Shown here: positions 1,427 through 31,925 of the stretch, piece after piece
How positions within the stretch are numbered: position 1 is the stretch's first letter
Layout: each line of letters starts with the position of its first letter
Source of the DNA: a virus
Strand: one strand, 5' to 3'
IMG/VR virus record: IMGVR_UViG_3300032177_000015
Location: 1 to 51,993 of that record
Length of the DNA: 51,993 bases
Program-made: the position numbers and the translations under genes
The notes under the pieces: generated by a model
Told to the model about the DNA's origin: nothing
Database searches by the model: none
The model's input: the letters and a program-made list of their open reading frames with translations, nothing else

Positions 1427-1569
1427 ATACTACTCTTATAGAAGATTTAGAAATATTAAAATATTTAATTGAAGATTTTGAAGATAATGTTAATAGTATA
1501 AGTGGTCTTGTTCCTGTTATAGATAAACTAATTAATAAATATAAGGCATATGAGGAAAATAAACTATGA
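1423..1569 (+). CDS. Unknown 48-aa acidic protein between two coupled genes
   Basis: A short open frame starts at the ATG of an ATGA overlap with the preceding gene and ends in a second ATGA-type overlap with the nuclease gene at 1566. AAGGA lies just upstream. The product (MNTTLIEDLEILKYLIEDFE...) is acidic and helical. The double 4-nt overlap argues that it is a real, translated link in the operon. Function unknown. Confidence 0.6.
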   Translation: MNTTLIEDLEILKYLIEDFEDNVNSISGLVPVIDKLINKYKAYEENKL

Positions 1570-2477
1570 TTTGTTGTTCTGATTTACATTTAAAAAATAA
1601 AGAACCTTTTTTAAAATCAACTAAACAATTTTTAAATTGGTTAAATGATAATTATTGTAATGAAGAATTAATTTTGTTAGGTGATATTTTTGATAATTCA
1701 ACTCCAGTTTGGTCAGTTTATAAAATTTTTAAAGAATTTCTTTTGAAAAGAAAAAATATAACTCATATATTAGAGGGCAATCATGATCTATCAAAAAACA
1801 AAGGGAGTGCTTTATCTGCATTTCAATTAATAGATAATGTATTTGTTTATGAAGATGCAACATCTGTTATTATAGATAATATGAATTGTCTTATGCTTCC
1901 TTTTAAATATGATTATAAAACATATCAAGATTTAGAAGGTAATTTTGATTTTATTTTTACTCATTTAATGCCACAAGAAACTCAATTTGCAGATGAAGGC
2001 GTATCTTTTCCAAATTTAAAAGGATGTTTTTTTCATGGCCATCATCATCTACAATCTTCTTTTATTGATAATTATAATAATCAACATCATATCGTAGGTA
2101 TTCCAGTAAGCACTCGACACTTAGAAGATCAAAATCATAAGATATTTAAAATAAATAATAAACAAATAGAAATTATTAAAGTTCCAATTTATTTTCAATA
2201 TGAAACTATTAATTATGGAGAAGAACCATCAAATAAAAATAATATACTTAATATTATAAATGTACCAAATAAAAAATTAGTATACGAAAAATATAAAGAT
2301 TATTATATAAGAGAAGCTGGTATTAAACTATTAAGAACAGAAAATACAGAAAGTTCTTTTAAACAAGAATTTGAAAAAGCAACAATACTTGAAAAGTTTA
2401 AAAAATATTCTATTGAAAAAATTTTATCAAAGGAGGTATCAGAAGAATGTTCATCAAGACTATTAAGCATTATATAA
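1566..2477 (+). CDS. SbcD/Mre11-type metallophosphoesterase (T4 gp47-like nuclease subunit)
   Basis: The 303-residue protein has the calcineurin-like phosphoesterase motifs in order: D6-L-H8 at the very N-terminus, LLGDIFDN with D40, GNHD at 71-74, a later histidine in FTHLMP, and a terminal HGHHH cluster. These supply the two-metal site of SbcD/Mre11/gp47 nucleases. Such proteins work with an SbcC/gp46 ATPase in recombination and DNA-end processing; the partner gene is not in this window. At 303 residues it is close to the length of T4 gp47 (about 340). The C-terminal third lacks clear motifs and would be the capping or partner-binding domain. It is coupled to the preceding 48-aa gene and overlaps the following gene by 31 nt. 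Confidence 0.85.
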   Translation: MICCSDLHLKNKEPFLKSTKQFLNWLNDNYCNEELILLGDIFDNSTPVWSVYKIFKEFLLKRKNITHILEGNHDLSKNKGSALSAFQLIDNVFVYEDATSVIIDNMNCLMLPFKYDYKTYQDLEGNFDFIFTHLMPQETQFADEGVSFPNLKGCFFHGHHHLQSSFIDNYNNQHHIVGIPVSTRHLEDQNHKIFKINNKQIEIIKVPIYFQYETINYGEEPSNKNNILNIINVPNKKLVYEKYKDYYIREAGIKLLRTENTESSFKQEFEKATILEKFKKYSIEKILSKEVSEECSSRLLSII

Positions 2478-2706: not shown

Positions 2707-3087
2707 TTACAATAATTTAAATGCCATTTTTATTGAGATGTCAAGATCGACATTATTTGAATTTTTTGTTATATAACTATATGAAGTTATTTTTTTTATA
2801 TTTTTAATCTTTTCTATAATATCCTGTTCTATATGACTTGAACGAAAAATTATTGGAATGTCATAATTTTTTAAAATTATTTCTGCAGTTTCAATACCAT
2901 CCAGTCCTTTTCCTAAATCAATATCTATAAGAAGAAGTTGAATATTAGGTATATTTTTTATAGTTTTTATTGCGTCTTCTCCAGTATTAACAATAATAAC
3001 AATATACCCATAATTTTCAAGAATTATTTTAGTTGTTATTGCTATAATAATTTCATCTTCAACAAGGAGTATTGTTTTTTTGTTCAT
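2707..3087 (-). CDS. Stand-alone response-regulator receiver (CheY-like) protein
   Basis: The 126-residue protein is a complete receiver domain. The acidic pair E10-D11 sits in ILLVEDE, the predicted phosphoacceptor is D55 in LLLIDIDLGKGLDG, the switch Ser is S83 in IIFRSSH, and the conserved lysine is K108 in SYITKN. There is no output domain. The C-terminal wording (SSH...TSYSYITKNS...SIKMAFKLL) closely resembles receiver domains attached to spirochaete sensor kinases, from memory. The start codon overlaps the stop of the hub-like tail gene (ATGA), so it is co-translated as the last gene of the tail operon. It could intercept a host phosphorelay or chemotaxis signal; that is inference. All four key residues are present, so it should be phosphorylatable. 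Confidence 0.9.
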   Translation of the reverse strand: MNKKTILLVEDEIIIAITTKIILENYGYIVIIVNTGEDAIKTIKNIPNIQLLLIDIDLGKGLDGIETAEIILKNYDIPIIFRSSHIEQDIIEKIKNIKKITSYSYITKNSNNVDLDISIKMAFKLL

Positions 3088-4416: not shown

Positions 4417-5673
4417 TTATCCTCTATAGCTTATACTACCTTTATGCATCGTATTAACATGGGGACCAAATGACATAAATCTTATAATTGTTCCTGCTAC
4501 ATAATATCTTAATGCTGATATTTGAGCAGAATTCCCATTAACGTCCATATGTGCCATAGAATACACGCTAGTATATGCTAACGGTGCATTTAATACAGTA
4601 GCATTAGCTGTAATATCAATTGGCTGGCCTACCCCACTAGCCCAACCAAGGAAATCTGCATAATAATGCCCACTTTTTAAAATAGTTACTTCTAGCCCTT
4701 TAGTTCCGTATGCGCCATGATTGTGTGAAAAGAAATTACCTATAGAATACAATACTCCAGCAAATTTAAGAACACAAGTGTCCGTAGACCCATATCCAGC
4801 AGAAGTAAGAAATGCTATTTCGCAAGTAATTCTTTCGTCGATAATTTCCCAGCAGTCTAAGGTTGCGCTTTGTTGTATAACAATAAAATCTTCAACCTTG
4901 GAAAGAACAATTGATGCTAATAAATCAGTGCTTAATTTTCCGGCATCTGTTGCATGAGGAGAAATTGTAACAACATCCAAAGATGCATCGTTTTTGACTA
5001 ATGCAATTTCTATTCTTCTACTAATATTATTAGCCATTAAAGGGAGAGTAATGGCTATGGCGTTAGAAGTAGTATTGCATTCAATTCGCGAATATCCATC
5101 ATTATCTAACATAACATAATTAGCTGTTTTTGCTACTGTGGTATTACCATATGTTGTAAGTGCTTTAGTACTATTATATAATCCATTAGCTCCTAAAATA
5201 GTAACATCTGTAGCAGCAATAACATTTGTACTTCTCATATTACCACTTCTATCAAATGTACCCCAAGTTTTAGATGTATAAGAAAATGAAGTTAAAGTAC
5301 TTGCTACATATACTCCCATACCAACAACTACATCAGAAGTAAGTAAGTCCCCTACGGCTTTAGCAGTAAAATCCATATAATTAGTTGTAGAATCTACCCA
5401 TGTAAATTGACACGTTATATATGGAGTAGATTCAGTAATAGGAAATACTATGTTTGTTGTAGTTTTTACATGCATCATTTGTAGTGCTGATGTTTCTACC
5501 AATAAATCAAGAGGTGCTATATTAACATTATTTCCAGAATTTATTGTAAGATTACCACCATCATATATACCTGGTTTAGTAATATTATAAAGTAGTTTTC
5601 CTAAATCAGAAGATATAAGTGCTTGATTATATCTAAAAGTTATTGTCTGTGTTCCATAATCTGTTGTTCCCAT
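4417..5673 (-). CDS. Tail fibre protein B (paralogue of 6076-7416)
   Basis: The 418-residue protein shares layout and sequence with the fibre gene at 6076-7416. The N-terminal part matches (TITFRYNQALISSDLGKLL versus YITFDYKHPAKGSDFNTLL; PGIYDGG versus PGVYKGG; NIAPLDLLVETS versus TIAPFVIYINTS). A highly conserved block at residues about 207-283 also matches (VKNDASLDVVTISPHATDAG is identical). The C-terminal ends diverge (YGSTDT... to SISYRG), as expected for receptor-binding tips. It would recognise the host surface. The part encoding the conserved block and tip looks visibly richer in G/C than the 5' half, suggesting an exchanged module. It lies between a small fibre-associated gene and the hub-like gene. 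Confidence 0.7.
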   Translation of the reverse strand: MGTTDYGTQTITFRYNQALISSDLGKLLYNITKPGIYDGGNLTINSGNNVNIAPLDLLVETSALQMMHVKTTTNIVFPITESTPYITCQFTWVDSTTNYMDFTAKAVGDLLTSDVVVGMGVYVASTLTSFSYTSKTWGTFDRSGNMRSTNVIAATDVTILGANGLYNSTKALTTYGNTTVAKTANYVMLDNDGYSRIECNTTSNAIAITLPLMANNISRRIEIALVKNDASLDVVTISPHATDAGKLSTDLLASIVLSKVEDFIVIQQSATLDCWEIIDERITCEIAFLTSAGYGSTDTCVLKFAGVLYSIGNFFSHNHGAYGTKGLEVTILKSGHYYADFLGWASGVGQPIDITANATVLNAPLAYTSVYSMAHMDVNGNSAQISALRYYVAGTIIRFMSFGPHVNTMHKGSISYRG

Positions 5674-5684
5674 GTTATACCTTT

Positions 5685-6074
5685 TTATTCTATTGGTTTT
5701 GGAAATCTAGTTTTTATTTCTTCAACTTTAGCTATCCATACTGATTTTTCTATTTCCCCTCGTTGAAAATCGAAAAATAATCCATCACTTTCGTTTATAT
5801 AAGCAGATTTTCTTTGAGATATACATATTTCTAAATCTCTATTATATCTAAATTCTTTTAAATTTACAGAAGTATCTATTTCAATAATTTCTTTATTTAT
5901 AAATTTAAATATTGGATTTCCCATTTCATCTGAAATACATTTATTTTCTATCCATATTGATTGTTCTTGAACTTCATCAAAAAATATTTCCGTTCCATCA
6001 AACTTAGAAACAACATGTTCATGAAATAAGTCTATAATTTCATTTTTTTCATTTATTTTTATATATCTTTTCAT
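5685..6074 (-). CDS. Tail-fibre-associated / fibre assembly-like protein
   Basis: The 129-residue acidic protein ends with the wording ESDGLFFDFQRGEIEKSVW followed by a Lys-Val-Glu-Glu-Ile-Lys tail, which resembles the C-terminus of many small phage proteins encoded next to fibres ('DPLFFKxQRGE...W...KVEEIKxRYP'). Such proteins often act as fibre assembly chaperones or are appended to fibres. Its position between the two paralogous fibre genes supports that role. It has no cysteines or membrane segments. Confidence 0.55.
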   Translation of the reverse strand: MKRYIKINEKNEIIDLFHEHVVSKFDGTEIFFDEVQEQSIWIENKCISDEMGNPIFKFINKEIIEIDTSVNLKEFRYNRDLEICISQRKSAYINESDGLFFDFQRGEIEKSVWIAKVEEIKTRFPKPIE

Positions 6075-6075
6075 T

Positions 6076-7416
6076 TTAATTTCCTAAATATGTGCAAGAA
6101 AAAAATATATTCCCCGGAGCTATTGCTGTTGAGTGTGGTCTCATAATATCTCCTTTTTTAAGATACGCTGTATAAGCCATAACAATTCCAGCTGTAGCTG
6201 ACCCAAAACTTATTGAGCAAATAGTATTAGCTGTAATTGATGTTACATCAGTTGTACGTTGTGCTGAATTAAGTGAGAGACCATAAAATGCAGCTGTCCC
6301 ACTTTCTACTCCAGAATGTATAAAAGCATATCTTCCTGATCGATTTATAGTAATTTCCAACCCTTTAGCATTACCAGAATACCCACTAACATGGTTTTCT
6401 GAAAACATATTTCCAAAATTTTCAGTAACAGTTGTAAATCTCATAATTTTTGTATCAGTTGATCCATAACCCGCATATGTGTCTAATCTCAACTGACTTG
6501 TAATTCTTTCATTTACAATTTCCCAACAATTAGAATTTGAGGATTGTTGCACAACTATAAAATCTCCAACTTTGGGAAGTATAATCGATGAGAGTAAATC
6601 ATTCGATAATTTACCGGCGTCTGTAGCATGAGGAGAGATTGTAACTACATCAAGAGAAGCATCATTTTTTACAAATTGGATTCGTATTTGTCTTCCTAGA
6701 TTATTAGCCATAAGAGGGAGAGTAATTGTAACTGCCCCCGCTGTCGTATCTACTTCGATAACTTGTAATCCATCTGTATCTGTTATAGGATATGTTGCTT
6801 GTTTATATGCTGTTATAGGATGTGATGTTAATGTTTTTACTGCTTTTTGACTAGGTATTAAAACATCACTATTTCCAGCAAAAGTTATGTCTGTACTTAA
6901 ATCTGCTCCATCAACTTGTTCTACATTAAGATTTGATACTTTAGTTGTAGAGGTTATTATAAAAGGAGAAGTTCCAATAGGAACATCATTTGTAAATTTT
7001 TTACCCCAAGTTTTACTAGCATAAGTTATACTTGTAATTACTCCACCACCAAATACACATTCACCTAAACATACTTCATTTGTTAATGCTCCAGATCCAG
7101 ATGCTCTTTGATTAAAATCTAACCAATCTTCTGAAACATCTTGCCAAGTATACGTAAGTGCTATTACTGGTGTAGATTCTGTAACTGTTATATTTACATT
7201 CGCTCTAGTTTCAATTCTTACAAGTTTGTCTGTACTTGTATTTATATATATAACAAAGGGAGCTATTGTTATTCCTGTACCAGAATAAGTAATAAGACCA
7301 CCTTTATAAACACCAGGAGTAATTGCTTCTCTAAGAAGAGTATTAAAATCACTTCCTTTTGCTGGGTGTTTATAATCAAATGTAATATATTGATCCCCTA
7401 GATTTGTTGCTGACAT
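6076..7416 (-). CDS. Tail fibre protein A
   Basis: The 446-residue protein is Thr/Ser/Gly/Val-rich and beta-structured throughout. It sits directly after the gpI-like gene, the position of the fibre gene in P2-type tails (J-I-fibre-assembly). It has the N-terminal anchor-like region shared with the fibre at 4417-5673, a middle spacer (SQKAVKTLTSH resembles the common fibre motif 'S-x-x-A-V-x-x-Y/L'), the conserved block at about 229-306, and a divergent C-terminal tip ending in CTYLGN. The likely role is adhesion to the host surface. Two fibres sharing a stem but differing in tip could widen host range or form a mixed fibre. Confidence 0.7.
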   Translation of the reverse strand: MSATNLGDQYITFDYKHPAKGSDFNTLLREAITPGVYKGGLITYSGTGITIAPFVIYINTSTDKLVRIETRANVNITVTESTPVIALTYTWQDVSEDWLDFNQRASGSGALTNEVCLGECVFGGGVITSITYASKTWGKKFTNDVPIGTSPFIITSTTKVSNLNVEQVDGADLSTDITFAGNSDVLIPSQKAVKTLTSHPITAYKQATYPITDTDGLQVIEVDTTAGAVTITLPLMANNLGRQIRIQFVKNDASLDVVTISPHATDAGKLSNDLLSSIILPKVGDFIVVQQSSNSNCWEIVNERITSQLRLDTYAGYGSTDTKIMRFTTVTENFGNMFSENHVSGYSGNAKGLEITINRSGRYAFIHSGVESGTAAFYGLSLNSAQRTTDVTSITANTICSISFGSATAGIVMAYTAYLKKGDIMRPHSTAIAPGNIFFSCTYLGN

Positions 7417-8613: not shown

Positions 8614-10458
8614 TTAAGATATATAAGATAAATCAGCATTAATGAATGAATCTTCAATGTCTGTTATCTGATAAAAATATGGAAGTCTAATACTATTTTG
8701 TTGAGTTGCTGGAGTATTACCATCTTGCATTTTATATGAAATAAATATTTTATATCCTAAAGGATCAGAATCTCCTGGATCTGCAATACCATATATTACA
8801 TGAGTAACATCTGCTACAATTTCTGCTATTGTAAATGAAACTTGATTTGTTGAATATGATACAAAACCTCCAGTTATTGTATATCCATTCATACCTAAAA
8901 TAGTAATTCCTGAGGTATATGCTATTTGTAAAGGAGCAACCCAAGCATTTGCAATTTTTCGTTTTATCCAAATTTCAAAACTATCAAGAACTAAATAATT
9001 TTGTTTATCTAAATTAGGGGTGTCAATAGAAGTATAACTTGGTTTTAATTTTAAATTACTTGTTATTATATTAATATCTGATTCCATATAATAAATTTTA
9101 GTTGTATGATAGATAATATTTGGTATTTCATCAATAATTCTATAGAAATTAGATTCATATATATTTTTTTGAAATGTTGTAGTTAATATATCATATTCTG
9201 TATTTAATGCTGTTTTAATAGCCGCATCTAATACTGTAAAAGTTTGAGTTAGTGCAATTTTAGCAGTAATATCAAATCGTACATATATTTTTTGCAAGGC
9301 TGTATATGCTACCATTTCAGTTAAACATTTTTTAGGTGTTAAATAAGTTACTATAATATCTCCCTGTTGAATGGTAGTTAAATTTTCTCCAGTTGTAGAA
9401 ACTGCAGTAAAATATACAACATTTTGATCAGATACAGTAGTTGATAGTCCAAGACTTTCTATTGTCCATACAATTGATTTATTTACATAAGAAGCAAGAT
9501 TAATTGCAGCTTCCCAATTTGCAGTAGATGATAATAAAGATCCTATTTGAAATAAATTAGGGGCATTATTTCTAATTGATTCAATATTTTCTATTTCAGA
9601 TCCACCAACTATACCTTCATCATTTGTAACATATAAAGTAACTGGAAGATTATCTTCGTCAACTAAAGTTGTTACAAGAACAGTTATTACATTACTAGAT
9701 GTAATATCTCCTGATGCTCCTTTTGTATCTGCATATTTTACAAGAACTCTTTCTCCAGCAATTAATTTTTTAGAATTTATACCATCACCAAAACAAATTT
9801 TAATATAATCATAAGCAGCAGAATTTGAAATTTCACAGTAATAGTCTACAACATTATTTATAAGATATAAATTAGTTGTAATGATAGCTTCATATAAAAA
9901 ATTACCTGATGTATCAACTATCTGAACTTGAATTTCCGTATTATCAGTTGAATCAGAATATACATAAACACATTCATTAACTATTCCTTGAGCAATATAT
10001 AAAAATTCTTTGGGTGTTCCTTCTTTTACTGGAATAACTACGTTACCTATAAATCCAGTATAATAGAAAGTACTTTCTGTACAATATGTAATTAAATCAC
10101 TATCAGTATTTGTAAAAACTGCCCATCGTGGAATATTTACTTCTTTTCCTGTATATATTGACATTGAATTAAAAGTAGGATCATAACTTAATTTTAATTC
10201 TCCTATTGCTCCAGTTTTTCTATATGGAATATAGCCTAACCATATTGCAAGTTTAACAAGAGAATCTCTTTTTTCTGCTGTTATCCACTTAGCTTCCCTA
10301 TATAAAAATTCTGCTAAATATACAAGTTTTTCTCCAGTATACGCAAGCATATCTACTATACGTTGATATACTCCATAATATAATATTGTATTCCAATCAG
10401 ATAGAAGTGATAATCTGTTTTTTATTTCTGTTACTAACCCATCGTACGTGTATATCAT
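8614..10458 (-). CDS. Baseplate wedge protein, gpJ/gp6-like
   Basis: This 614-residue protein begins with the helical region typical of baseplate J (MIYTYDGLVTEIKNRL...; LYREAKWITAEKRDSLVKLA, then LGYIPY), followed by a strand-rich core and the 'R-x-x-A-P-x-L-F/x' type segment (ESIRNNAPNLF, about 290-300) common in gpJ/gp6 proteins. The family forms the ring of wedges that locks the baseplate and changes shape at contraction. T4 gp6 is 660 residues, so the length fits. It follows the gp25-like gene as in T4 (25 then 6) and P2 (W then J). No enzymatic motif. Confidence 0.8.
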   Translation of the reverse strand: MIYTYDGLVTEIKNRLSLLSDWNTILYYGVYQRIVDMLAYTGEKLVYLAEFLYREAKWITAEKRDSLVKLAIWLGYIPYRKTGAIGELKLSYDPTFNSMSIYTGKEVNIPRWAVFTNTDSDLITYCTESTFYYTGFIGNVVIPVKEGTPKEFLYIAQGIVNECVYVYSDSTDNTEIQVQIVDTSGNFLYEAIITTNLYLINNVVDYYCEISNSAAYDYIKICFGDGINSKKLIAGERVLVKYADTKGASGDITSSNVITVLVTTLVDEDNLPVTLYVTNDEGIVGGSEIENIESIRNNAPNLFQIGSLLSSTANWEAAINLASYVNKSIVWTIESLGLSTTVSDQNVVYFTAVSTTGENLTTIQQGDIIVTYLTPKKCLTEMVAYTALQKIYVRFDITAKIALTQTFTVLDAAIKTALNTEYDILTTTFQKNIYESNFYRIIDEIPNIIYHTTKIYYMESDINIITSNLKLKPSYTSIDTPNLDKQNYLVLDSFEIWIKRKIANAWVAPLQIAYTSGITILGMNGYTITGGFVSYSTNQVSFTIAEIVADVTHVIYGIADPGDSDPLGYKIFISYKMQDGNTPATQQNSIRLPYFYQITDIEDSFINADLSYIS

Positions 10459-12830: not shown

Positions 12831-14399
12831 TTACCCCTTTTCAGCTAATTTTAAAGTTCCTGTTTTACTTAATGAAAAATTCATTGCTTTAACAGTTTGA
12901 GTTTGTTTTGAACTTATTTCCAAATCTGATAATAAACCAGTTTGTTTAGCCGCAGCTAATCTAGTAGCAGACATTCCAGTTTCTTTTGATAATTCTCTTA
13001 ACTTTAATGCATCTCTAGCTTCTGCAGCTGTTAATTGACCAGTTGCTACTAATTGTTTTTCTGTTGCATCTGTTTTTGCCGCTTGAACAACAATTGATTG
13101 TGCAGCTTCTTTTTCAGAAGCCTCTATTTGTTGTTTATGTTCTTTATAATCCATTATACCATAATCGGAAACAGCTCCAATCCAATCTAATAAATCACTT
13201 ATAACTTTAGTTACAGTAGACATTGCAGAAGTTACTCCACTAGCAACTGTACTAAAAAGACTACTTATCATATTTATTACAGGAGTTAATTTTTTAAGTA
13301 CTGGAGCGGCTGCTTTAGATAATGCTTTAAATAATCTTTTAATAGGGTCTATAAAAATAGATCTAAATATATTACTAAGTACAATATATCCTGTTTTGAA
13401 AACAGCAATTGCTCCTATTATAAAAGTATATAATCCTTTAATGAGTCTAATAGGAAGTAATATAATAGCTTTAATTACCTTTATTATTCCCATAAAAATA
13501 ATGCCAAGAATTTTAAATAAAAATTTACCAACTATCTTTAAATATGGTAACATAGGAACTATATAATTATTAAAAAATGATTTAATTTCATTAAACATAT
13601 CCATTAACATTGGTTTAATAAGAGCCCAATTATCATATATTAAATATCCTAATAATGCAACAGCTGCAACTAATGCAACAATAGGTAGACTTAGAGCCCC
13701 TATAACACCAGCTACAGTAGTTATTATTGGCATTATTGTAGATATTAACCAAATACCTGCTATTAGAAGTGGTAACCATTGTGCAATAAAATCAGCAAAT
13801 TTAAGTAATGTTTTATTTTCTATACCTAACATTTTAAAAATAGTTCTAAAAATTGTTTTTAAAATACTAGGTATAATTTTAGTTAATAAATTCCAAAAGA
13901 ATTTTAAGAGAGTCGGTATAAATTTAATTAACCCTATTATAGCACTTCCAATAATACTGAGGAACCAAGGAAGAAATTTTTGTATAATTCCCATTCTAAG
14001 TAATATTAAAAAGGCAATAAGAGTAGTAATAAAACTTACTGATGCCATTCCTTTTAAAAATCCTAAAGTTTTTTGAAAGAAATTAGATTTAATAACTTTT
14101 TGCCATTTTTCTGTTATCCAAGATTGTTTTTTCTTATCTCCATCTTTTGGTTCATTTTTTTTATCGAATTTATTTCCTGATTCTGTTTCTCCATATACTT
14201 TTTCTACAATTTCTATTAAACGAGTAAATCTAGTAATAAGCATATTATGTAGACCTTTGATAGCCATAGTAAACATACCATTGCCACCAAAAAATTTTAT
14301 CATAAAAGGGGTGTATATTTTATTAACTTTTATTTCTTCTTTTTTTAATTCCTTACTAAGAGGTTTATTAAAATCAGGCATTACAAAACTATCTTCCAT
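12831..14399 (-). CDS. Tail tape-measure protein
   Basis: The 522-residue protein has the tape-measure build: a charged N-terminal part with Lys/Glu-rich linker (to about 95), a very hydrophobic middle with many potential membrane helices (about 115-420), and an Ala/Lys-rich coiled-coil-like C-terminus (KEHKQQIEASEKEAAQSIVV...). It sits after the overlapping assembly-protein frames and before the baseplate genes, the canonical position. It sets tail length and is thought to enter the host membrane during DNA delivery. At roughly 1.5 Angstrom per residue of extended helix it would imply a tail of modest length. A late-promoter copy lies 19 nt upstream. Confidence 0.75.
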   Translation of the reverse strand: MEDSFVMPDFNKPLSKELKKEEIKVNKIYTPFMIKFFGGNGMFTMAIKGLHNMLITRFTRLIEIVEKVYGETESGNKFDKKNEPKDGDKKKQSWITEKWQKVIKSNFFQKTLGFLKGMASVSFITTLIAFLILLRMGIIQKFLPWFLSIIGSAIIGLIKFIPTLLKFFWNLLTKIIPSILKTIFRTIFKMLGIENKTLLKFADFIAQWLPLLIAGIWLISTIMPIITTVAGVIGALSLPIVALVAAVALLGYLIYDNWALIKPMLMDMFNEIKSFFNNYIVPMLPYLKIVGKFLFKILGIIFMGIIKVIKAIILLPIRLIKGLYTFIIGAIAVFKTGYIVLSNIFRSIFIDPIKRLFKALSKAAAPVLKKLTPVINMISSLFSTVASGVTSAMSTVTKVISDLLDWIGAVSDYGIMDYKEHKQQIEASEKEAAQSIVVQAAKTDATEKQLVATGQLTAAEARDALKLRELSKETGMSATRLAAAKQTGLLSDLEISSKQTQTVKAMNFSLSKTGTLKLAEKG

Positions 14400-17026: not shown

Positions 17027-19177
17027 TTAAATTATTAAACTTTCAATAGAAATTGTTTGAGAAACTCGTGTAAGTCTTAAAATAATCCACTCACTTGTTG
17101 GAGTTATTTTACAGTAAAAATCCAAAATAAATTGACGATTATTTAAAACAATATCAGTATTGTTACTAGAATCACACACAATTTTGAATTCCCGGATCCA
17201 ACCATTCGCTCTAATAGGTTCAACAAATTCTTCTGTTTGAACTTTTGCCATAAGTCTATGAAGAGGATCATTTATTTTAAATTCTTGTTTTCTAAGAATT
17301 TGTTTAGAAATAACATCTAGCATATATTTATATACTCGTCTTGTTCCTACAAAACTTGTATCGCTATTCGTTACTTGAAGAGTTTGATCTCCATAAGCTA
17401 ATAAACCATAAGAAGGATCAAGTAGTAATGGATTTATTTGAGCATTATAAAAAGAATCTAATTCTGCTTGAGTATAATCTATTTCTACTTCTTTCACTGA
17501 CCAATCATTTAATTGTCCACCATGTCCATTTTCATCAAGTCCTGCAGGAGCAGCAGCATCATAAACATCTGACATATAAGCAAATTTTTTACCTACTGAT
17601 CCTACATGAGATATCCATGCAAAACTATTATTATAATCATCTTGAATTTTAGCCCAATTATGATAAAGTCCTATATCATCTGTATCAAGAGCTAGTGCAG
17701 ATCTAAAAGATAAAGCTTGTGAAGCACTATAACCAAGTGGAACACATGTAATACCTTGTGCTTGTGTTTGATAAGTTTGAATAAGAGTATTTATTGTTGA
17801 TGCATGTGTACCATATACATCCATAAATATTTTAGCTTTATATTTATTAGCATATTGAAATTGATTCCATGCTGTAGTATAATCCCCTGTTAATGGAGTA
17901 GCTCCCCTAGATCCACCAGAAAATGCAATTGCTGTAGAAGCAACTGTATATGGAGTAGAAACAAAAGCAGAATTAAGTTTAAAAGTTACATATGGATTTT
18001 CATCAAATACGTCTATATAATATAAAGATTTACCAAATGCATCTTTTTCATTTATGAGTGAATAATTATAAGTATTAAGAAGTGAATTGCCTGTTGAAAG
18101 AACTCTATAAAGGGTTAAGGTAAATTTACTCCCAGATACATAAGTTATTGAAGCTGCTAAATCATCTATATAGGGAGAAGTTGTAAAAAAACTATGAGAA
18201 ACTACAGAAGAAGTATCAACTGTATAATGATAATTAAAAATAACTGCTTCTCCATATTTAGGAATTGATAAAGTTGGGTTAGATCCAATATCTGTTAAAC
18301 TTGTTCCACCAGAACTGAAAACTATTGTTAATGCTGAATCTCCTGTTGTAGGAGTTTCAACTGTTATACTACCAATGGTACTTCCATTTCTTCCTGTTAA
18401 TCTAATATAATTTGTATCGACTACTGCTGCAGTATATCCAAAAGCTGAATTAATGGCAGAAATTACAGAAGCTCTTGAAGTAGTCGCAGATTGACCAAGA
18501 TTAATAGTTTGAATATTACCATCAATAGATATTTTAATATATTTATCTGTTGATCCTAAACTTAAATCTAAAGTTGAACTAAAATTTACATTTGTAATAA
18601 CAGTTGCATAACTTCCAACAACTCCAGCAAATGTAATTGAATATACACCTGTTGCTAATACTACTGAACCTGCTGTAATATCTGTTCCAGATAATGCACC
18701 ACCTGTCGCCATTGTAACAACTTTTTCATAACCATTAACTAATACTTTAAAATTAGCTTCATCAGCTACTGGAATATTTGTTATAATTCCTGAATAAGTA
18801 GCTGTAATACCTGTACCTATCCCAACTGAATGAGTTGCTCCTTTTAAAGTAGATCCATAATTAAAGGTACTAGGTGTTCTACCAACTCCAAAAGTAGTTA
18901 CAGTTGCTGCACCTACATCTACTCCACCATAAACTGCTCCAATTCCAATTGCACAAGCTACATATAAAGGGGCTCTTCGTGTAAATGCAATTGCTTCAAA
19001 AACTCCATGATAAGTTGCAGAAGGTCTACCCAATTCTCTTAAACAATCTTCTTCTGATTGTAAATACATTGGAGTTGATTTTCCTTTTGCTGTAGTTAAA
19101 ACCATCGCTCCTGTTTCATCAACAAGAGTATTTATAAATCCTGAAAGATCTTTTTCTATAATTTGTGTTCTACTCAT
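17027..19177 (-). CDS. Contractile tail sheath protein
   Basis: At 716 residues it is similar in size to T4 gp18 (659). The N-terminal region (MSRTQIIEKDLSGFINTLVD...TRRAPLYVACAIG) and the C-terminal domain have the gp18/FI sheath pattern: 'AFSGGSRG' near 420, 'LYHNWAKIQDDYNN' and 'AYMSDVYDAAAPAGLDENGH' in the middle. Near the end comes 'VQTEEFVEPIRANGWIREFK', then 'IVCDSSNNTDIVLNNRQF', the C-terminal domain that binds neighbouring subunits. The central roughly 250 residues (Gly/Thr/Ser/Val-rich) form the exposed insertion domain. It contracts to drive the tube through the envelope. Its own exact late-promoter copy lies 51 nt upstream. Confidence 0.9.
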   Translation of the reverse strand: MSRTQIIEKDLSGFINTLVDETGAMVLTTAKGKSTPMYLQSEEDCLRELGRPSATYHGVFEAIAFTRRAPLYVACAIGIGAVYGGVDVGAATVTTFGVGRTPSTFNYGSTLKGATHSVGIGTGITATYSGIITNIPVADEANFKVLVNGYEKVVTMATGGALSGTDITAGSVVLATGVYSITFAGVVGSYATVITNVNFSSTLDLSLGSTDKYIKISIDGNIQTINLGQSATTSRASVISAINSAFGYTAAVVDTNYIRLTGRNGSTIGSITVETPTTGDSALTIVFSSGGTSLTDIGSNPTLSIPKYGEAVIFNYHYTVDTSSVVSHSFFTTSPYIDDLAASITYVSGSKFTLTLYRVLSTGNSLLNTYNYSLINEKDAFGKSLYYIDVFDENPYVTFKLNSAFVSTPYTVASTAIAFSGGSRGATPLTGDYTTAWNQFQYANKYKAKIFMDVYGTHASTINTLIQTYQTQAQGITCVPLGYSASQALSFRSALALDTDDIGLYHNWAKIQDDYNNSFAWISHVGSVGKKFAYMSDVYDAAAPAGLDENGHGGQLNDWSVKEVEIDYTQAELDSFYNAQINPLLLDPSYGLLAYGDQTLQVTNSDTSFVGTRRVYKYMLDVISKQILRKQEFKINDPLHRLMAKVQTEEFVEPIRANGWIREFKIVCDSSNNTDIVLNNRQFILDFYCKITPTSEWIILRLTRVSQTISIESLII

Positions 19178-21138: not shown

Positions 21139-22269
21139 ATGAAAAAAATTTTATATATTTCACCATATGAAGAATTTATTTTAGCACAAAATGGTGGATA
21201 TGGAGTGATAGCAGAATCATTTAAGAAAATGTTTGATATTATAGAAAATATAGAAGTAACTTATATAAATATAAATGAATTAAGTATGGGAATATATAAG
21301 AATATTGTTAATAAATATGATATTTGTATTATATTAACTCATCCATTATCATTTGAAAATAAAATAGTTAAACAAAATATAGAACAAGTTACAACTTCAT
21401 GTATTAAAATTTATTTACATTTATTTTGGGAAACTATTCCTTTACCTTCTAAGTGGAAATGGTTATGGGCATCTAATTTATTTACTGGATTTATATCACC
21501 ATCTAAATTTATTTATGATATGATTAAAGATGAAATAAAAGGAACAAATAAAGAAAATCATCTTATATATTGCCCAATATTTAAAGATGATTTTTCTAAA
21601 TATAAAATAAAAATAGAAAATAAAAATAATGAAAATATATTTACTGTTTTATATATAGGACAATATACTAAAAGAAAAGGAATGGAAGATGCAATAATAG
21701 GATTTTTACATGCATTATCTCAATATAAAGATTGTAGATTGATATTAAAATATCATCCACTATCTAATAAAGAGTTAGAAATTCCATTATTATTAAAAAC
21801 ATTAGTTAGTACAAATTCAAAAGAAATGAAAGCAAAAATTTATGAAATTACTCAAAATTTAAATAAAGATGAAATTTATTCTCTATATACAGAATCATCT
21901 ATATTATTATTTCCTTCTAGAGGTGAAGGATTTGGATTACCTTTAATAGAAGCTGGAATGATTGGATTACCTTGCATTTATACAAATTGGTCATCAACTA
22001 TTGAAACTGGAAAATTTAAGGGAAATAAATCTATCTCTTGTATTCTTGATACTGCTCAAGGTATGTCTCATTATGAGTATGAATCAAATTCAATTTATGC
22101 TATTCCATCAATAAAAGATATTATTAAAAATTTAAGAGATTGTTATAATATGTGGAAGTTAAATAAACAAGAATATTATATGAATACTAATAATAATGAT
22201 CTTGAAATTATTAAAAAATTTGGTAAAAAAAATTTTATTGAACAAATAAATAAACTCATAGGAGAATAA
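21139..22269 (+). CDS. GT-B glycosyltransferase (GT4-like)
   Basis: The 376-residue protein has the two-domain GT-B layout. An N-terminal acceptor half has a Gly-rich loop (NGGYGVIAESFKK), and a C-terminal donor half starts at about 172 (VLYIGQYTKRKGMEDAIIGF). The diagnostic donor-site segment LLFPSRGEGFGLPLIEAGMI (about 258-277) holds the E-x7-E motif of GT4 enzymes. It would move a sugar from a nucleotide-sugar to a growing glycan in the cytoplasm. It opens a tightly packed plus-strand operon: the next gene starts 3 nt after its stop. The real substrate cannot be read from sequence. Confidence 0.8.
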   Translation: MKKILYISPYEEFILAQNGGYGVIAESFKKMFDIIENIEVTYININELSMGIYKNIVNKYDICIILTHPLSFENKIVKQNIEQVTTSCIKIYLHLFWETIPLPSKWKWLWASNLFTGFISPSKFIYDMIKDEIKGTNKENHLIYCPIFKDDFSKYKIKIENKNNENIFTVLYIGQYTKRKGMEDAIIGFLHALSQYKDCRLILKYHPLSNKELEIPLLLKTLVSTNSKEMKAKIYEITQNLNKDEIYSLYTESSILLFPSRGEGFGLPLIEAGMIGLPCIYTNWSSTIETGKFKGNKSISCILDTAQGMSHYEYESNSIYAIPSIKDIIKNLRDCYNMWKLNKQEYYMNTNNNDLEIIKKFGKKNFIEQINKLIGE

Positions 22270-22272
22270 TTT

Positions 22273-23304
22273 TTGAAAACTGCTTTAATAACTGGTATAA
22301 GAGGACAAGATGCCGCTTGGTTAACAAAACTTCTTTTAGATAAAGGGTATAGAATTATTGGAACAGATAGAAGAAGTGGAGGTTCAAGTAATTGGAGATT
22401 AGAAGAATTAGGTATTGCCAATCATCCATATTTAATTTATGAATATATGGATATTACAGAACAAAACAATGTTAATTCTATTATAAAAAAATATAAACCT
22501 AATGAATTATATCAATTAGCTGCACAAAGTTTTGTAGGATCTTCATTTGAAATGCCATATGTTACAAATGATGTAAATTATTATGGACATTTAAATATAT
22601 TAGAAGCAGTTAAAAATTATAGTTTTAATACAAAGGTATGTTTTGCAGCAACTAGTGAAATGTTTGGTAAAGTTAAAGAAATTCCTCAAACAGAAACAAC
22701 TCCTTTTTATCCTCGTAGCCCTTATGGAGTATCAAAAGTTGCTAGTTTTTATTTAGGAATAAACTATAGAGAAAGTTATGGAATGTTTATAAGTAATAGT
22801 ATTTCGTTTAATCATACAGGATCATTAAGAGGAATAGAATTTATTTCTCAAAAATGCGTAAAAGAATTATATAAAATACAAAAAAGCATTATTGAAGATA
22901 GAGGATTTCTTCCTTTAAAAATAGGTAATATTTATTCAGAAAGAGATTTTTCTCACGCTAAAGATATAGTAAATGGAATGTGGTTAATGTTACAACAATC
23001 TATTCCAAATGATTTTATTCTTTCTAGTGGAGAATCAATTAGTATTAAAAATTTTATTAATAAAATTTGTAATAAATTAAATTTAAATTTAATATGGCAT
23101 AATGAAAATAAAGGAATAGAAGAATATGCAACAATAGATAATGTAAAAATTATAGAAATATCTAATAAATTTTATCGACCATGTGAAGTTGATAATCTTA
23201 TAGGAGATAATTCAAAAGCAAAACAATTTTTAAATTGGCAAGTACAGTATACAATTGATACTATAATTGAAGAAATGATACATGCAGAACAAAAAAGAAA
23301 ATAA
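22273..23304 (+). CDS. GDP-mannose 4,6-dehydratase-like SDR enzyme
   Basis: The 343-residue protein starts at TTG with GGAG upstream. The N-terminal NAD(P)-binding motif TGIRGQDAAWLTKLLL matches the Gmd wording 'T-G-I-T-G-Q-D-G-x-x-L'. The catalytic residues are T127 (in AATSEMFG, with E129) and the Y151-x3-K155 pair in SPYGVSK. FNHTGSLRG (reading 'N-H-E-S-P-x-R-G' in typical Gmd) and the later FYRPCEVDNLIGDNSKAK are also Gmd-like. Gmd makes GDP-4-keto-6-deoxymannose, the precursor of GDP-fucose, GDP-rhamnose and GDP-perosamine. The substitution of the usual ESPRRG by TGSLRG is unusual and may alter specificity. It supplies an activated deoxysugar to the neighbouring glycosyltransferases. Confidence 0.85.
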   Translation: MKTALITGIRGQDAAWLTKLLLDKGYRIIGTDRRSGGSSNWRLEELGIANHPYLIYEYMDITEQNNVNSIIKKYKPNELYQLAAQSFVGSSFEMPYVTNDVNYYGHLNILEAVKNYSFNTKVCFAATSEMFGKVKEIPQTETTPFYPRSPYGVSKVASFYLGINYRESYGMFISNSISFNHTGSLRGIEFISQKCVKELYKIQKSIIEDRGFLPLKIGNIYSERDFSHAKDIVNGMWLMLQQSIPNDFILSSGESISIKNFINKICNKLNLNLIWHNENKGIEEYATIDNVKIIEISNKFYRPCEVDNLIGDNSKAKQFLNWQVQYTIDTIIEEMIHAEQKRK

Positions 23305-24331
23305 TCAAAAATATATCTTATATGGAGCAGGAGAACTTGGTAAATTAGCTAGTCAATTCTTTGATTTTTACAATATTAAATATATTTTATGTGAAGATAC
23401 CCCACAAAATGAAAATATATTTAGAATAGAAGATATTATTATTGAAGATAATCCTTTAGTTATTATTTGTATCTCTACTACTTCATATATAGAGATATTA
23501 AATAAATTACAAAATAAGGGATTTAATAATATTAAATCATTCTTTGAAGTAGCTGAAGAAATAAATAAAGCTAATGATTATAAACACCCTTTAACTAATG
23601 GATGGAGAAAAGAAAAATGGAAAAAATCAGAAGAAATCTATTGTGATAAAGTTGCACATAATTTAAATGATGAAGCTTCAATTAAACAGTATTATTCATT
23701 TATTCATTGGCATATTTATTATACTGAATTTCTATATAATCAAACAATAAATTGTAATAATAGATATTTTATTTCTGAAATTACATCTGTATTACATGAT
23801 CATGAAGTATTTGTAGATGTAGGTACTTATGATGGAAGAGTCATTAAAAAATTTATTGAAAATATACATGGTAGATTTAATTCAATTTATTGTTTTGAAC
23901 CTGATTTAGAAAATTGTTTTAATCTTTCTCAATCAATAGGGGATATAGAATTTTTATATTTATATAATATAGCACTTGGAAATAAGAAAGGTTATGTCAA
24001 TTTCAATAATTGTAAATATTTATCAAAAGTAGATAAAAGATCAAAAAATAAAGTTCCAATAAATAAATTAGATAATATTGAACTTACACCAACTTTTATC
24101 AAATATCACTTAGAAGGATATGAATTAGAAGCAATTAAAGGATCAATTAAAACTATTAAAAAATATAGACCAATTATAGCAGTTACTACTTATCATACAA
24201 AAGAAGGATTATATAAACTTCCACTATATTTAATTAAGAATCTTAAAAATTATAATTTTTATTGGAGAAATCATAACTATATGGGGCAAGGAGCAGTAAT
24301 GTACTGTATACCAAAGGAGAGAAGTAAGTGA
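23282..24331 (+). CDS. FkbM-family methyltransferase with N-terminal nucleotide-binding-like domain
   Basis: Residues 10-75 (YILYGAGELGKLASQFFDFY) form a short Rossmann-like unit often found in front of FkbM or sugar-modification domains. From about 175 the FkbM methyltransferase begins: VFVDVGTYDGRVIKKFIE (SAM motif I), SIYCFEPDLENC (acidic residue after strand 2), then ALGNKKGYVNFN and the terminal FIKYHLEGYELEAIKGSIKT, which matches 'K-x-D-V-E-G-x-E-x-x-x-L-x-G'. The Asp of the KxDVEG motif is replaced by His here. It probably O-methylates a sugar of the glycan. It overlaps the Gmd gene by 23 nt. Confidence 0.75.
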   Translation: MQNKKENNQKYILYGAGELGKLASQFFDFYNIKYILCEDTPQNENIFRIEDIIIEDNPLVIICISTTSYIEILNKLQNKGFNNIKSFFEVAEEINKANDYKHPLTNGWRKEKWKKSEEIYCDKVAHNLNDEASIKQYYSFIHWHIYYTEFLYNQTINCNNRYFISEITSVLHDHEVFVDVGTYDGRVIKKFIENIHGRFNSIYCFEPDLENCFNLSQSIGDIEFLYLYNIALGNKKGYVNFNNCKYLSKVDKRSKNKVPINKLDNIELTPTFIKYHLEGYELEAIKGSIKTIKKYRPIIAVTTYHTKEGLYKLPLYLIKNLKNYNFYWRNHNYMGQGAVMYCIPKERSK

Positions 24332-25632
24332 ACATACTACATCTAGTTCCACATCTTGGAGGAGGCGTTAAGGTTGTGCTTCTTAGTTGGGCAATTAATG
24401 ATAATATTAATAATCATATATTTATGTCATTAGGATATGCAGATGAACAAGTAGAGCAGCTCTGTAATAAAAATAATATTAAAATATTTAGTAATGCAGA
24501 ATATAATTTAATTTGTAAATATGTACAAGATTTTGCAGATATAGTTGTTATTCATTATTGGAATTTTCCATTACTATTAGATTTTTTAATACAAAAAACT
24601 TTACCTAAATGTAGAGTTATAACATGGTTTCATAATTCTGGTTTTTATGCACCATATAATTTACCAAAAGAAATAATAGAATATTCAGATAAGTTTATAT
24701 TTACTTCTCCTATAAGTTATGAGTTAGAAGTAATTACTAATTTACCTAAAGAATCAAAAGATAAATTAGGATGCATTTGGTCTACAGGAGGAATAGAAAA
24801 ATATAAAGATGTAAAACAAAATAAACATGAAGGATTTAATATACTTTATGTAGGTACTTTAGATTTTGCAAAAATGTATAATAATTTTGTTGAAGTTTGT
24901 TTTAGAATAAGTAAACAAATACCAGAAGCAAATTTTATTATTTGTGGAACTGGGTCTTCTGAACAAGAAATTATAGAACAAACTGAATTTTATGGAATTA
25001 GAGATAAATTTATATTTGCAGGGTTAGTTAAAAATTTAATTCCTTATTTTGAAATAGCAGATATATTTTTATATTTATTAGAACCAACTCATTTTGGAAC
25101 AGCAGAGCAAATACTTGGTGAAATTATGGCTAGTGGAATTATTCCAGTTGTATTTAGAAATAGATGTGAAAAACAAATAGTAGAAAATAATATAAATGGT
25201 TATATAATATCAACTGATGATGAATGTTTGTCCGTTGTACAACAAATATATAATGATAAAGATAAATTAACTACATCTTCTATTTCTTTAAATGCTTCAA
25301 TAAGTGCGCAAGAAAAATATTCAATAGAAATAATGATTAATGATTGGAATAAATTATTTAATGAAGTTATTCTTTTACCTAAAAAAGAAAGACAATGGTT
25401 TACTAATTTTAAAGATATGTATGGAGAAGGTACAATAGCTTTTTTAGAATCATTAGATTATAAAATAGCTACTGCATTTCAAAAATATATAACTTATGAA
25501 CAACAAATAGAAAACATATTTAATTCTAATTTACAGTGGCAATCAACCAGTAAAGGTAGTATAAAACAATATCTACAATATTTTCCTAATGATAAATATT
25601 TAAATAAATTTCAAAAAATAATGAATAAATAG
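24328..25632 (+). CDS. GT-B glycosyltransferase (GT4-like) with extra C-terminal domain
   Basis: The GTG start overlaps the preceding stop (GTGA) after AAAGGAGAG. N-terminal MNILHLVPHLGGGVKVVLLS is the glycine-rich acceptor loop typical of GT4 enzymes. The donor half starts near 170 (FNILYVGTLDFAKMYNNFVE) and includes ADIFLYLLEPTHFGTAEQIL and GEIMASGIIPVVFRN. The second Glu of E-x7-E corresponds to E268 in LGEIMASG. About 90 residues beyond the usual end contain no known motif. Ends with TAG, which shows TAG is used as a normal stop in this phage. Confidence 0.7.
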   Translation: MNILHLVPHLGGGVKVVLLSWAINDNINNHIFMSLGYADEQVEQLCNKNNIKIFSNAEYNLICKYVQDFADIVVIHYWNFPLLLDFLIQKTLPKCRVITWFHNSGFYAPYNLPKEIIEYSDKFIFTSPISYELEVITNLPKESKDKLGCIWSTGGIEKYKDVKQNKHEGFNILYVGTLDFAKMYNNFVEVCFRISKQIPEANFIICGTGSSEQEIIEQTEFYGIRDKFIFAGLVKNLIPYFEIADIFLYLLEPTHFGTAEQILGEIMASGIIPVVFRNRCEKQIVENNINGYIISTDDECLSVVQQIYNDKDKLTTSSISLNASISAQEKYSIEIMINDWNKLFNEVILLPKKERQWFTNFKDMYGEGTIAFLESLDYKIATAFQKYITYEQQIENIFNSNLQWQSTSKGSIKQYLQYFPNDKYLNKFQKIMNK

Positions 25633-25634
25633 TA

Positions 25635-26741
25635 ATGCAAATAATTTATAATAATATACCCTTTGAAATTGCAGAGTTATATCAACCTATTTATAATTTT
25701 AATGAAGTACAAGAGTATAAAAGAAATAGTAATGATAGATGGAAAACTATTCTACAAGCAGAAGAAGGATATAATAACAATAAAATGTTTGAAGGTAGTA
25801 TTTGTGATTGGGGATGTAGTCTTGGTTATTTTTCTTTTAAATTAGCAGAAAAAACAAAAAAAATAATAACTGCTATTGATTACGACTATAATAATATATT
25901 ATTATGTAATGAAATAAGAAAATTTAATCAAATTAAAAATGTAGAATTTTTAACTGGTATAATACCAGAAGCAATTCCTGAAAATTATGAATCTCATATT
26001 ATTTTATCAACCCTACATCATTTTCAAAAAAATTATAAATTACCCAATGAAGTTTATGAAAAAATAAAAAACTCAACTACTATTTATTTAGAATTAGCGC
26101 ATTGTAATGAATCACCTAGTTGGGCAAATAAACTACTTCCTGAAGATTATGAATCTCTTTCCCCTATTCATACATTATTTAATTATATAACTAATCAATT
26201 TTTAACTCATACAGTTAGACTTATTGGTGTACATAAAACTCATATAGGGAGTCTTAGACCATTATTTCAATTAAAAAAACATATTTCAGAAAAAATAGAA
26301 ACTGAATTATTTACTGGAATTATTTATGATAGATTTTTATTGCCTTATATAGACTTTGGAGATTTTTCTTTAACTCTTCAAGGAAAACTAGCTCATGGAA
26401 AAAGAGAAAAACAAGGAATATCATACGCTTTTGCAAAAGATGTATTAAATGAAAAATATTTTTTAAAATTTATTAATAATGTTTTAACTAAAAAATCAAA
26501 ATTTATTAATGGATTTTTATTAAGTGATATAATTAAATTTGGATTACTTCCTTATTATGATAGATTTAAAATAAAAACTCAACTTACAAAATATAATTCT
26601 ACCAATCATACAGATCCACATACTTGGAATTTTTTTATTACTGAACAATCAGAAGTAATTCCTATTGATTTTAATGAATATACAACAACAACAAATGAAA
26701 ATCTAAATGCCTTTATCTCAATATTAATACAAACTATTTGA
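25635..26741 (+). CDS. SAM methyltransferase fused to a phosphotransferase/kinase-like C-terminus
   Basis: The N-terminal half is a class I methyltransferase: SICDWGCSLGYFSFKLA (motif I, 55-71), ITAIDYDYNNILLC (acidic D82/D84) and IILSTLHHF (motif IV region). Near the end, HTDPHTWNFF (H325, D327, N332) followed by VIPIDFNEY (D345) reproduces the catalytic loop and metal-binding Asp of aminoglycoside-phosphotransferase/choline-kinase-like enzymes ('H-G-D-x-H-x-x-N ... I-D-F/W-x'). A single protein could methylate and phosphorylate a sugar or lipid, but the kinase ATP-binding lobe is not obvious between them, so the second activity is inference. It lies 2 nt after the previous stop. Confidence 0.65.
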   Translation: MQIIYNNIPFEIAELYQPIYNFNEVQEYKRNSNDRWKTILQAEEGYNNNKMFEGSICDWGCSLGYFSFKLAEKTKKIITAIDYDYNNILLCNEIRKFNQIKNVEFLTGIIPEAIPENYESHIILSTLHHFQKNYKLPNEVYEKIKNSTTIYLELAHCNESPSWANKLLPEDYESLSPIHTLFNYITNQFLTHTVRLIGVHKTHIGSLRPLFQLKKHISEKIETELFTGIIYDRFLLPYIDFGDFSLTLQGKLAHGKREKQGISYAFAKDVLNEKYFLKFINNVLTKKSKFINGFLLSDIIKFGLLPYYDRFKIKTQLTKYNSTNHTDPHTWNFFITEQSEVIPIDFNEYTTTTNENLNAFISILIQTI

Positions 26742-26754
26742 GGTTGAAAAATCA

Positions 26755-27759
26755 ATGACTATTGGAACTCGTATTATTCTTGAAAATAGAAAACCATTAG
26801 AAACTCTATTGCCATTAGAGGCTCCATTAGTACTTTTTATAGACCCTTCTGATTGGTGCTGTCTTAAATGTTTGTTTTGTCCAACCTCTGATAAAAAATT
26901 AATGAAGAAAGTTAATCGTCCCTTACAATCAATGAATTTTTCATTATTTACTTCAATTATAGATGATCTATTACAATTTAAAACTAAAATTAAAGTAGTT
27001 AGACTTTATGGACATGGTGAACCACTACTTAATATTAATTTTAGTAGAATGATTAAATATGCTAAACAATCAAATAGAGTAGAAATGGTAGATACTACAA
27101 CTAATGCTATTTGTTTATATCCTCAATTAAACTTAGAATTAATTGCATCAGGAATAGATAGAATAAATATTTCAGTTAATGGATTGAGTGATGAACAATA
27201 TCACAAATTTACTAGAGTTAAAATAGATTTTAAAAAATATGTTGAGCATATAAAACATTTATATGAAAATAAAAAACAGTGTTATATATTTATAAAAATA
27301 AATGGAGATACAATTTCTAAAGAGGATGAACAAAAATTTTTAGAAATATTTGAACCAATTGCGGATGCAGTAGCAGTTGAAAAATCTATGGCCTGTTGGC
27401 AAAGTTTTAAACCAAAAGGATTTTTAAGATCAGATGATACTATAGGAATTTATGGACAATCACTCAAAGAAGAAGCTCTGGTTTGTCCATATATAATGTA
27501 TTCTCTTTTTATACATAGTGATGGATTGGTATCTTCTTGTTTTTTAGATTGGAATAGAAAATTGAAAATAGGAGATATTAATACTACTTCAATTTATGAT
27601 ATATGGAATGGAGAACAATTAAAAAATTTTAGAAATTTTATGTTAGAAGGCAAACGTAAATCACATCGTTATTGTAAAAATTGTGATCAATTAAAAAAAG
27701 GTATGCCATCAAATATAGATAATTATGCAGAAGAATTAATAAAAAAATATAATTTTTAG
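26755..27759 (+). CDS. Radical-SAM enzyme with SPASM-like C-terminus
   Basis: C35-x3-C39-x2-C42 within DPSDWCCLKCLFCPTS is the radical-SAM [4Fe-4S] ligand motif. RLYGHGEPLLN (about 83-93) matches the 'G-G-E-P' SAM-binding motif with His for Gly. The C-terminal part has further cysteines (VCPYIMYSLFIHSDGLVSSC and RYCKNCDQL), separated as in SPASM/Twitch domains, which carry extra iron-sulphur clusters; 'G-D-I-x-x-x-S-I-x-D-I-W-N' is typical of that tail. It could perform a radical modification of a sugar, peptide or lipid. Its place among glycosyltransferases points to unusual glycan chemistry. Confidence 0.8.
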   Translation: MTIGTRIILENRKPLETLLPLEAPLVLFIDPSDWCCLKCLFCPTSDKKLMKKVNRPLQSMNFSLFTSIIDDLLQFKTKIKVVRLYGHGEPLLNINFSRMIKYAKQSNRVEMVDTTTNAICLYPQLNLELIASGIDRINISVNGLSDEQYHKFTRVKIDFKKYVEHIKHLYENKKQCYIFIKINGDTISKEDEQKFLEIFEPIADAVAVEKSMACWQSFKPKGFLRSDDTIGIYGQSLKEEALVCPYIMYSLFIHSDGLVSSCFLDWNRKLKIGDINTTSIYDIWNGEQLKNFRNFMLEGKRKSHRYCKNCDQLKKGMPSNIDNYAEELIKKYNF

Positions 27760-27770
27760 GAAATATTAAA

Positions 27771-28619: not shown

Positions 28620-28629
28620 AGAGGTTAAG

Positions 28630-31892: not shown

Positions 31893-31925
31893 ACAATTAT
31901 TTTTAAATTATAAGGAGAAGTTAAG

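Follow-up and report, generated by a model that had tools for sequence, protein, structure and literature searches.

The window analysed here is the whole 51,993-nucleotide stretch of viral DNA held in IMG/VR record IMGVR_UViG_3300032177_000015, and the gene of interest sits close to its beginning, on the minus strand, at the downstream end of a block of tail genes (sheath, tube, tape measure and baseplate wedges; Table 1). Its product is a response-regulator receiver domain standing alone. In Pfam it matches Response_reg (PF00072) with an E value of 3.2e-12 (47 bits against a cut-off of 30.2, over profile positions 1-106 of 111), a sequence search of the PDB returns 35 matching receiver chains (best E 4e-20), and AlphaFold2 models a complete (beta-alpha)5 receiver with a pLDDT of 88. 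Compared with solved receivers, the model reaches Z values of 20-21.5, and its fold matches include CheY4 and CheY. The full phosphorylation pocket is present: E10, D11, D55, S83 (at the Thr/Ser position) and K108. A preliminary description of this DNA had placed a stand-alone receiver with all phosphorylation residues at this locus, and the domain match, the PDB matches, the model and the pocket together bear that out. One other receiver family was considered and rejected, namely cREC (PF20274), the cyclic-phosphate processing receiver of jumbo phages: at E<=0.001 the protein matches PF00072 alone, and a weak cREC match occurs only in another viral contig, L090, which is taken up below. A PADLOC search of the receiver and its neighbours gave no match.

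The receiver gene and the tail gene before it share the stop/start overlap that the preliminary description had noticed. The predicted pairing of the receiver's ribosome-binding region with the anti-Shine-Dalgarno sequence is feeble (-1.1 kcal/mol, the third weakest of 34 genes in the window, where the median is -6.45). Given this weak signal and the overlap, the receiver is most likely translated by coupling to the tail gene before it, so that the protein would be made together with the late proteins, as the earlier suggestion of production alongside the virion proteins has it. The name "hub-like" for the preceding gene should be read loosely: the protein has a single, weak PHROG tail-protein match (Table 1) and no match in the PDB, and a model made without an alignment (AlphaFold, pLDDT 30) gave no usable structure.

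Table 1. Features around the receiver gene and in the tail operon (window coordinates).
Feature	Position	Strand	Basis or remark
Stand-alone receiver (REC) protein, P0001	2707..3087	-	126 aa; start 3087, stop 2707-2709; Pfam, PDB sequence and AlphaFold matches; 4 near-identical contigs
Predicted phosphoacceptor, D55 codon	2923..2925	-	invariant in 53/53 relatives
3-residue insertion I94-N96, alpha4-beta5 region	2800..2808	-	only in the window phage; absent from 53/53 relatives
ATGA stop/start overlap of receiver with upstream tail gene	3084..3087	-	sequence; very weak receiver Shine-Dalgarno
Hub-like tail protein, 439 aa	3084..4403	-	PHROG tail protein, 1.5e-5; last tail-operon gene in sister phages
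Fibre-like variable tail gene	4417..5673	-	paralogue of 6076-7416; partly swapped between strains
Baseplate wedge subunit	8614..10458	-	PHROG 219, 4.8e-28
Tape measure protein	12831..14399	-	PHROG tape measure matches
Tail sheath, early operon gene	17027..19177	-	PHROG 23, 1.4e-29
Convergent small ORF, 84 aa	2447..2701	+	ends 5 bases from receiver stop; conserved beside hub in sister phages
SbcD-like metallophosphoesterase	1566..2477	+	Pfam Metallophos, NCBIfam sbcd; syntenic in sister phages

Several other features of the window deserve mention in their own right. Two paralogous fibre-like genes, each with a small ORF as partner, occupy positions 4417-7416. Between strains (L002:1930-3455) the gene at 4417-5673 is partly swapped (80% identity), and an additional ORF of 79 aa is present in the other strain; the swapped gene and the extra ORF suggest that host-range genes recombine. 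A large plus-strand cassette (21139-32675 and 34362-35636) in this tailed phage carries glycosyltransferase-, GDP-mannose dehydratase-, methyltransferase- and radical-SAM-like genes. A TnpB gene lies at 43694-44842, and a 99% identical copy is found at the end of a sister contig (G001:82212-83309). Circularity does not explain the orientation of this copy, which is probably a mobile one of the IS200/IS605 type.

The relatives of the receiver are parts of larger proteins. Its best matches in prokaryote genomes are the N-terminal receivers of spirochaete REC-PAS(n)-HisKA_2-HATPase proteins; Chloroflexi and Ignavibacteria bins contribute a small number. Among 393 spirochaete genomes, the roughly 100 matches listed at E<=1e-30 reach 62% identity, and all of them lie in open frames of at least 190 aa, none being stand-alone; of the 54 relatives read in detail, the two that extend least beyond the receiver are truncated by a contig end or lie near one. 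The phage frame, for its part, stops directly behind the receiver domain, and the fused PAS and HisKA_2/HATPase parts are absent. No relatives were found in 50,697 phage records (INPHARED) or 72,556 plasmids (PLSDB). (Two of the four rows of one search alignment, A1, were probes typed from general family knowledge to supply patterns; confirmation relied on the protein of the window, and the probes carry none of the conclusions.) By sequence, the phage domain goes back to the N-terminal receiver of a REC-PAS-HisKA_2/HATPase kinase from a host, and the remainder of that kinase has been removed. A CheY lineage was rejected: the closest relatives are sensor-kinase receivers, and the 52-kb and 83-kb records of the phage have no HATPase or CheA-type domain.

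Set beside spirochaete REC-PAS(n)-HisKA_2-HATPase kinases (for example L014, L118 and L119), the phage domain is 48-62% identical over its whole length and has the same pocket and the same "SHxE...ITSYxY..KNS" core, but it stands alone, with neither PAS nor kinase, and has features of its own: a 3-aa insertion, R82, S104 and D114. Conservation of the pocket across the family is nearly complete, with D11, D55 and K108 unchanged in all 53 relatives, Ser or Thr at position 83 in all 53 and an acidic residue at position 10 in 52. The insertion follows K93, where the model has its lowest local pLDDT, and R82, S104 and D114 are changes at otherwise conserved family positions that leave the pocket itself intact. 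Two consequences may be considered. First, R82 and S104, which adjoin pocket positions, could make phosphorylation slower or prevent it. Second, to judge from the changes in alpha4-beta5, the output face seems no longer to serve its original intramolecular partner. The third-position GC content of the gene (GC3 0.11) is at the level of six other genes of the phage (0.07-0.12), and the receiver was therefore not acquired very recently from a genome of higher GC content.

The same site in related phages provides a direct comparison with and without the gene. Four near-identical contigs of the window's phage all carry the receiver and all keep its pocket, one of them with a D63N change outside it; the copies differ by one nonsynonymous and one or two synonymous changes each and are too alike for a selection test. 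The tail-gene alignment brought in three further viral contigs (L181, L182 and L183) in which the hub-like gene is 64-66% identical and which have the window's gene order: fibre-like genes, hub-like gene, convergent small ORF, SbcD-like gene and clamp loader. In all three, the hub-like gene is followed by a terminator-type hairpin and then by the convergent gene, with no receiver at the site (the sister-phage hairpins have stems of 9 and 11 pairs and z values of -3.5 and -3.8). The window lacks this terminator-like hairpin; there the receiver spans the gap between one stop codon and the other. Because sister phages with the same gene order lack the receiver here, it is evidently an accessory gene of the window's lineage at this site and no conserved tail gene. 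A role for the receiver as a tail protein was rejected on the same comparison, the sister phages having the same tail genes without it. The earlier placement of the receiver as the last gene of the tail operon holds in the four contigs of this phage and fails in the sister phages, where the hub-like gene comes last.

Between the hairpin and the convergent ORF, the sister phages have a noncoding GGAGGTT(A/T)ATGAAAAGA motif, a Shine-Dalgarno sequence plus start (L181:4912, L182:7360 and L183:3920), which opens an ORF of merely 3 to 9 codons. Such a motif could be what remains of a gene once located at the receiver's site, or could serve in regulation.

Another stand-alone receiver, of 129 aa, is encoded in a 155-kb sister contig (G401, 155,573 bases; L184:1471-1860, minus strand). 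It belongs to a different subfamily, has the ED/D/S/K residues and lies on the same strand as the hub gene of that contig, just downstream of ORFs of 260, 138 and 160 aa and of an unannotated 614-aa ORF. An ORF of 1153 aa is also among its unannotated neighbours, and PHROG gave no labels for the genes around it or for the neighbour of L090. Because two receivers of different ancestry occur in one phage group, a free receiver appears to be useful to these phages; the two cases suggest that the function, and not just the gene, is favoured. The preliminary description had named loss of pocket residues among related phages as evidence that would count against a working receiver. What is found is the opposite: the pocket is kept in the four contigs, and the different receiver of the sister phage is pocket-complete as well.

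As for the host, the virus probably infects spirochaetes, because the relatives of the receiver point there and because a tail gene has a DNA match in a spirochaete prophage. When the first 20 kb of the window were searched against the 393 spirochaete genomes, the only long DNA match outside the receiver was to the neighbouring tail gene, in genome G209, where the hub-like homologue is 44% identical. The matching region (L178:1-4329, in G209:C40) contains the hub-like homologue, a fibre-like gene with chitobiase-type repeats and a phage integrase, followed by chromosomal genes (an FGGY-type kinase and S-adenosylmethionine synthetase); these genes mark the place where a prophage ends within a spirochaete chromosome. 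No receiver follows the hub-like homologue in G209, and relatives of the receiver in that genome are weak only. A sheath search of G209, which had no positive control, gave no match. The TnpB gene is at most about 48-50% identical to spirochaete copies and is uninformative on the host.

If the receiver is phosphorylated, the donor would be a cellular one. HATPase_c was found neither in the 52-kb window (G000) nor in this phage's 83-kb contig (G001), and HisKA_2 is likewise missing from G001; the viral contigs G002 and G399 have both domains. With no kinase domain in the records of this phage, the phosphate would have to come from the host. The reading that we prefer, at a probability of roughly 0.45, is that a spirochaete phage has captured a single-domain response regulator and would use it late in infection as a decoy or sink for the HisKA_2-type kinases of its host. 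The receiver would first be made, late and in large amounts, through translational coupling to the tail gene before it. HisKA_2-type kinases of the host would then phosphorylate it, or it would dock on them. A receiver without an output domain would drain or block the flow of phosphoryl groups to the normal receivers of those kinases, and a host response (stress, envelope or developmental) would be damped or redirected in the late phase. Published precedents for this reading are MrrA, a single-domain receiver that HisKA2/HWE kinases phosphorylate (PMC5964349), and Osp and FixT, which inhibit kinases (PMC9430884). A sink role would need high amounts or fast turnover of the receiver. In the preliminary description the protein could be a phosphate sink or mimic that disrupts chemotaxis or stress signalling: a sink or decoy is compatible with the pocket and the coupling, but chemotaxis as the target finds no support, the relatives being receivers of HisKA_2 kinases.

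The closest rival, unlikely in our estimate, would dispense with phosphorylation: the receiver would bind the DHp/transmitter domain of a host kinase and block its autophosphorylation. There is precedent for this in Osp and FixT, single-domain receivers that inhibit kinases directly without being phosphorylated (PMC9430884), and in PIT4 of Pseudomonas phage LSL4, an early phage protein that interacts with several host two-component kinase domains (PMC10714779). The changes near the pocket (R82 and S104) and in alpha4-beta5 fit such an inhibitor too, but the phage has kept every pocket residue, which a pure binder would not need. The intact pocket would equally serve an active output or relay, to which we give a lower chance, in which the receiver, once phosphorylated, works on a target in the host (as CheY and DivK do) or passes its phosphate on (as Spo0F and MrrA do) and so switches a programme on. 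MrrA, a single-domain receiver phosphorylated by many HisKA2/HWE kinases (PMC5964349), is a relay-hub precedent, and the phage-specific insertion falls on the usual output face; the relatives, however, are never stand-alone output proteins, and the records of the phage show no partner gene.

Lower again we place the idea of a passenger, a host fragment caught by illegitimate recombination at the operon junction and with no present function. The presence of the receiver at this site in one phage lineage only would be expected of a passenger, as would its truncation exactly behind the domain. Yet the open frame and the pocket have been kept despite about 40% divergence, the base composition is fully adapted to the phage, the start is fused to the tail gene, and a sister phage keeps another receiver. 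Delivery with the tail as a virion component acting at the start of the next infection, which the preliminary description had also entertained, is very improbable: the gene belongs to the tail operon and is coupled to a tail gene, but it is absent beside the same hub gene in the sister phages and in the spirochaete prophage, it is fused to no tail protein, and the sister's own receiver is of a different subfamily. Just as improbable is a CheY mimic perturbing host chemotaxis and motility, for which the receiver-only architecture and the fold matches to CheY4 and CheY might speak, as the fold match is general to all receivers and the sequence relatives are sensor-kinase receivers.

If the favoured decoy or sink is right, a virus would have made a freely acting signalling decoy out of one domain of a host sensor kinase; the sister phages with an empty site offer a clean comparison, and other phages provide independent parallels. 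On this evidence, the receiver probably lets the virus tap or damp host signalling late in infection.

Among viruses, receivers of the same type (43-59% identical to that of the window) are found in the contigs L090 (REC-HisKA_2-HATPase), L152 (REC-PAS3-HisKA_2-HATPase) and L091 (REC-PAS-PAS), but there they are fused to kinase or PAS domains, whereas the window phage has the receiver only. The terminase on the contig of L090 shares 26% identity with that of the window. A 54-kb viral contig (L152:3611-5773, G399:8907-9470) encodes two HisKA_2 kinases, one of them a REC-PAS-PAS-PAS-HisKA_2 protein whose receiver is 59% identical to the window's, with a STAS-like ORF nearby. The receiver tree, mostly unresolved, speaks neither for nor against a common origin of the phage receivers and gives no support to a single monophyletic phage clade: the window's receiver, L090 and L091 fall apart in it, L091 on a long branch.

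Receivers in phages are, as the preliminary description had it, roughly speaking rare, with the qualification that Alteromonas phages also carry CheY-like genes behind their tail-fibre modules. V22 (ORF30; a myovirus), A5 (gp11; a schitovirus) and R9Y1 (gp12) each have a stand-alone, pocket-complete receiver behind tail-fibre genes on the late strand, and the CheY-like gene of V22 and A5 has been published as a class II auxiliary metabolic gene (AMG) in a shared host-recognition module (PMC7289586, PMC10579305). The window receiver has the same position as these tail-module genes, standing alone behind tail genes. The Alteromonas receivers differ in belonging to another subfamily, in their length of about 150 aa and in lying beside spanin- or lysis-like genes, whereas the window's is coupled to the hub gene; a BLAST comparison of the window receiver with V22 gp30 gave no significant alignment. 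In R9Y1-like contigs (L161:5627-6947 and L167-L170) the stand-alone receiver lies between a small membrane-anchored protein and a lysozyme-like gene and overlaps its neighbours, at the tail/lysis boundary. A position of this kind is thus already known; what the window phage adds is the lineage, the origin from a kinase and the comparison with empty sites. It is a doubtful generalization that spirochaete phages, and independently Alteromonas phages, repeatedly acquire host receivers or receiver-kinases, and that the freely diffusing late decoy that would have replaced the hairpin in the window exemplifies a general strategy of "receiver decoys" that silence host stress kinases. Tail-module receivers have until now been classed as auxiliary metabolic genes whose role is unclear, and their possible late action on host kinases becomes testable.

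FixT, Osp and MrrA are, like the window's protein, receivers without an output domain, and MrrA is served by kinases of the HisKA2 type; they are cellular and alphaproteobacterial, and the comparison of the window receiver with them is at the level of the domain. PIT4 resembles the role proposed here in being aimed at two-component kinases of the host, but it is made early and binds kinase domains, whereas the window receiver would be a late product.
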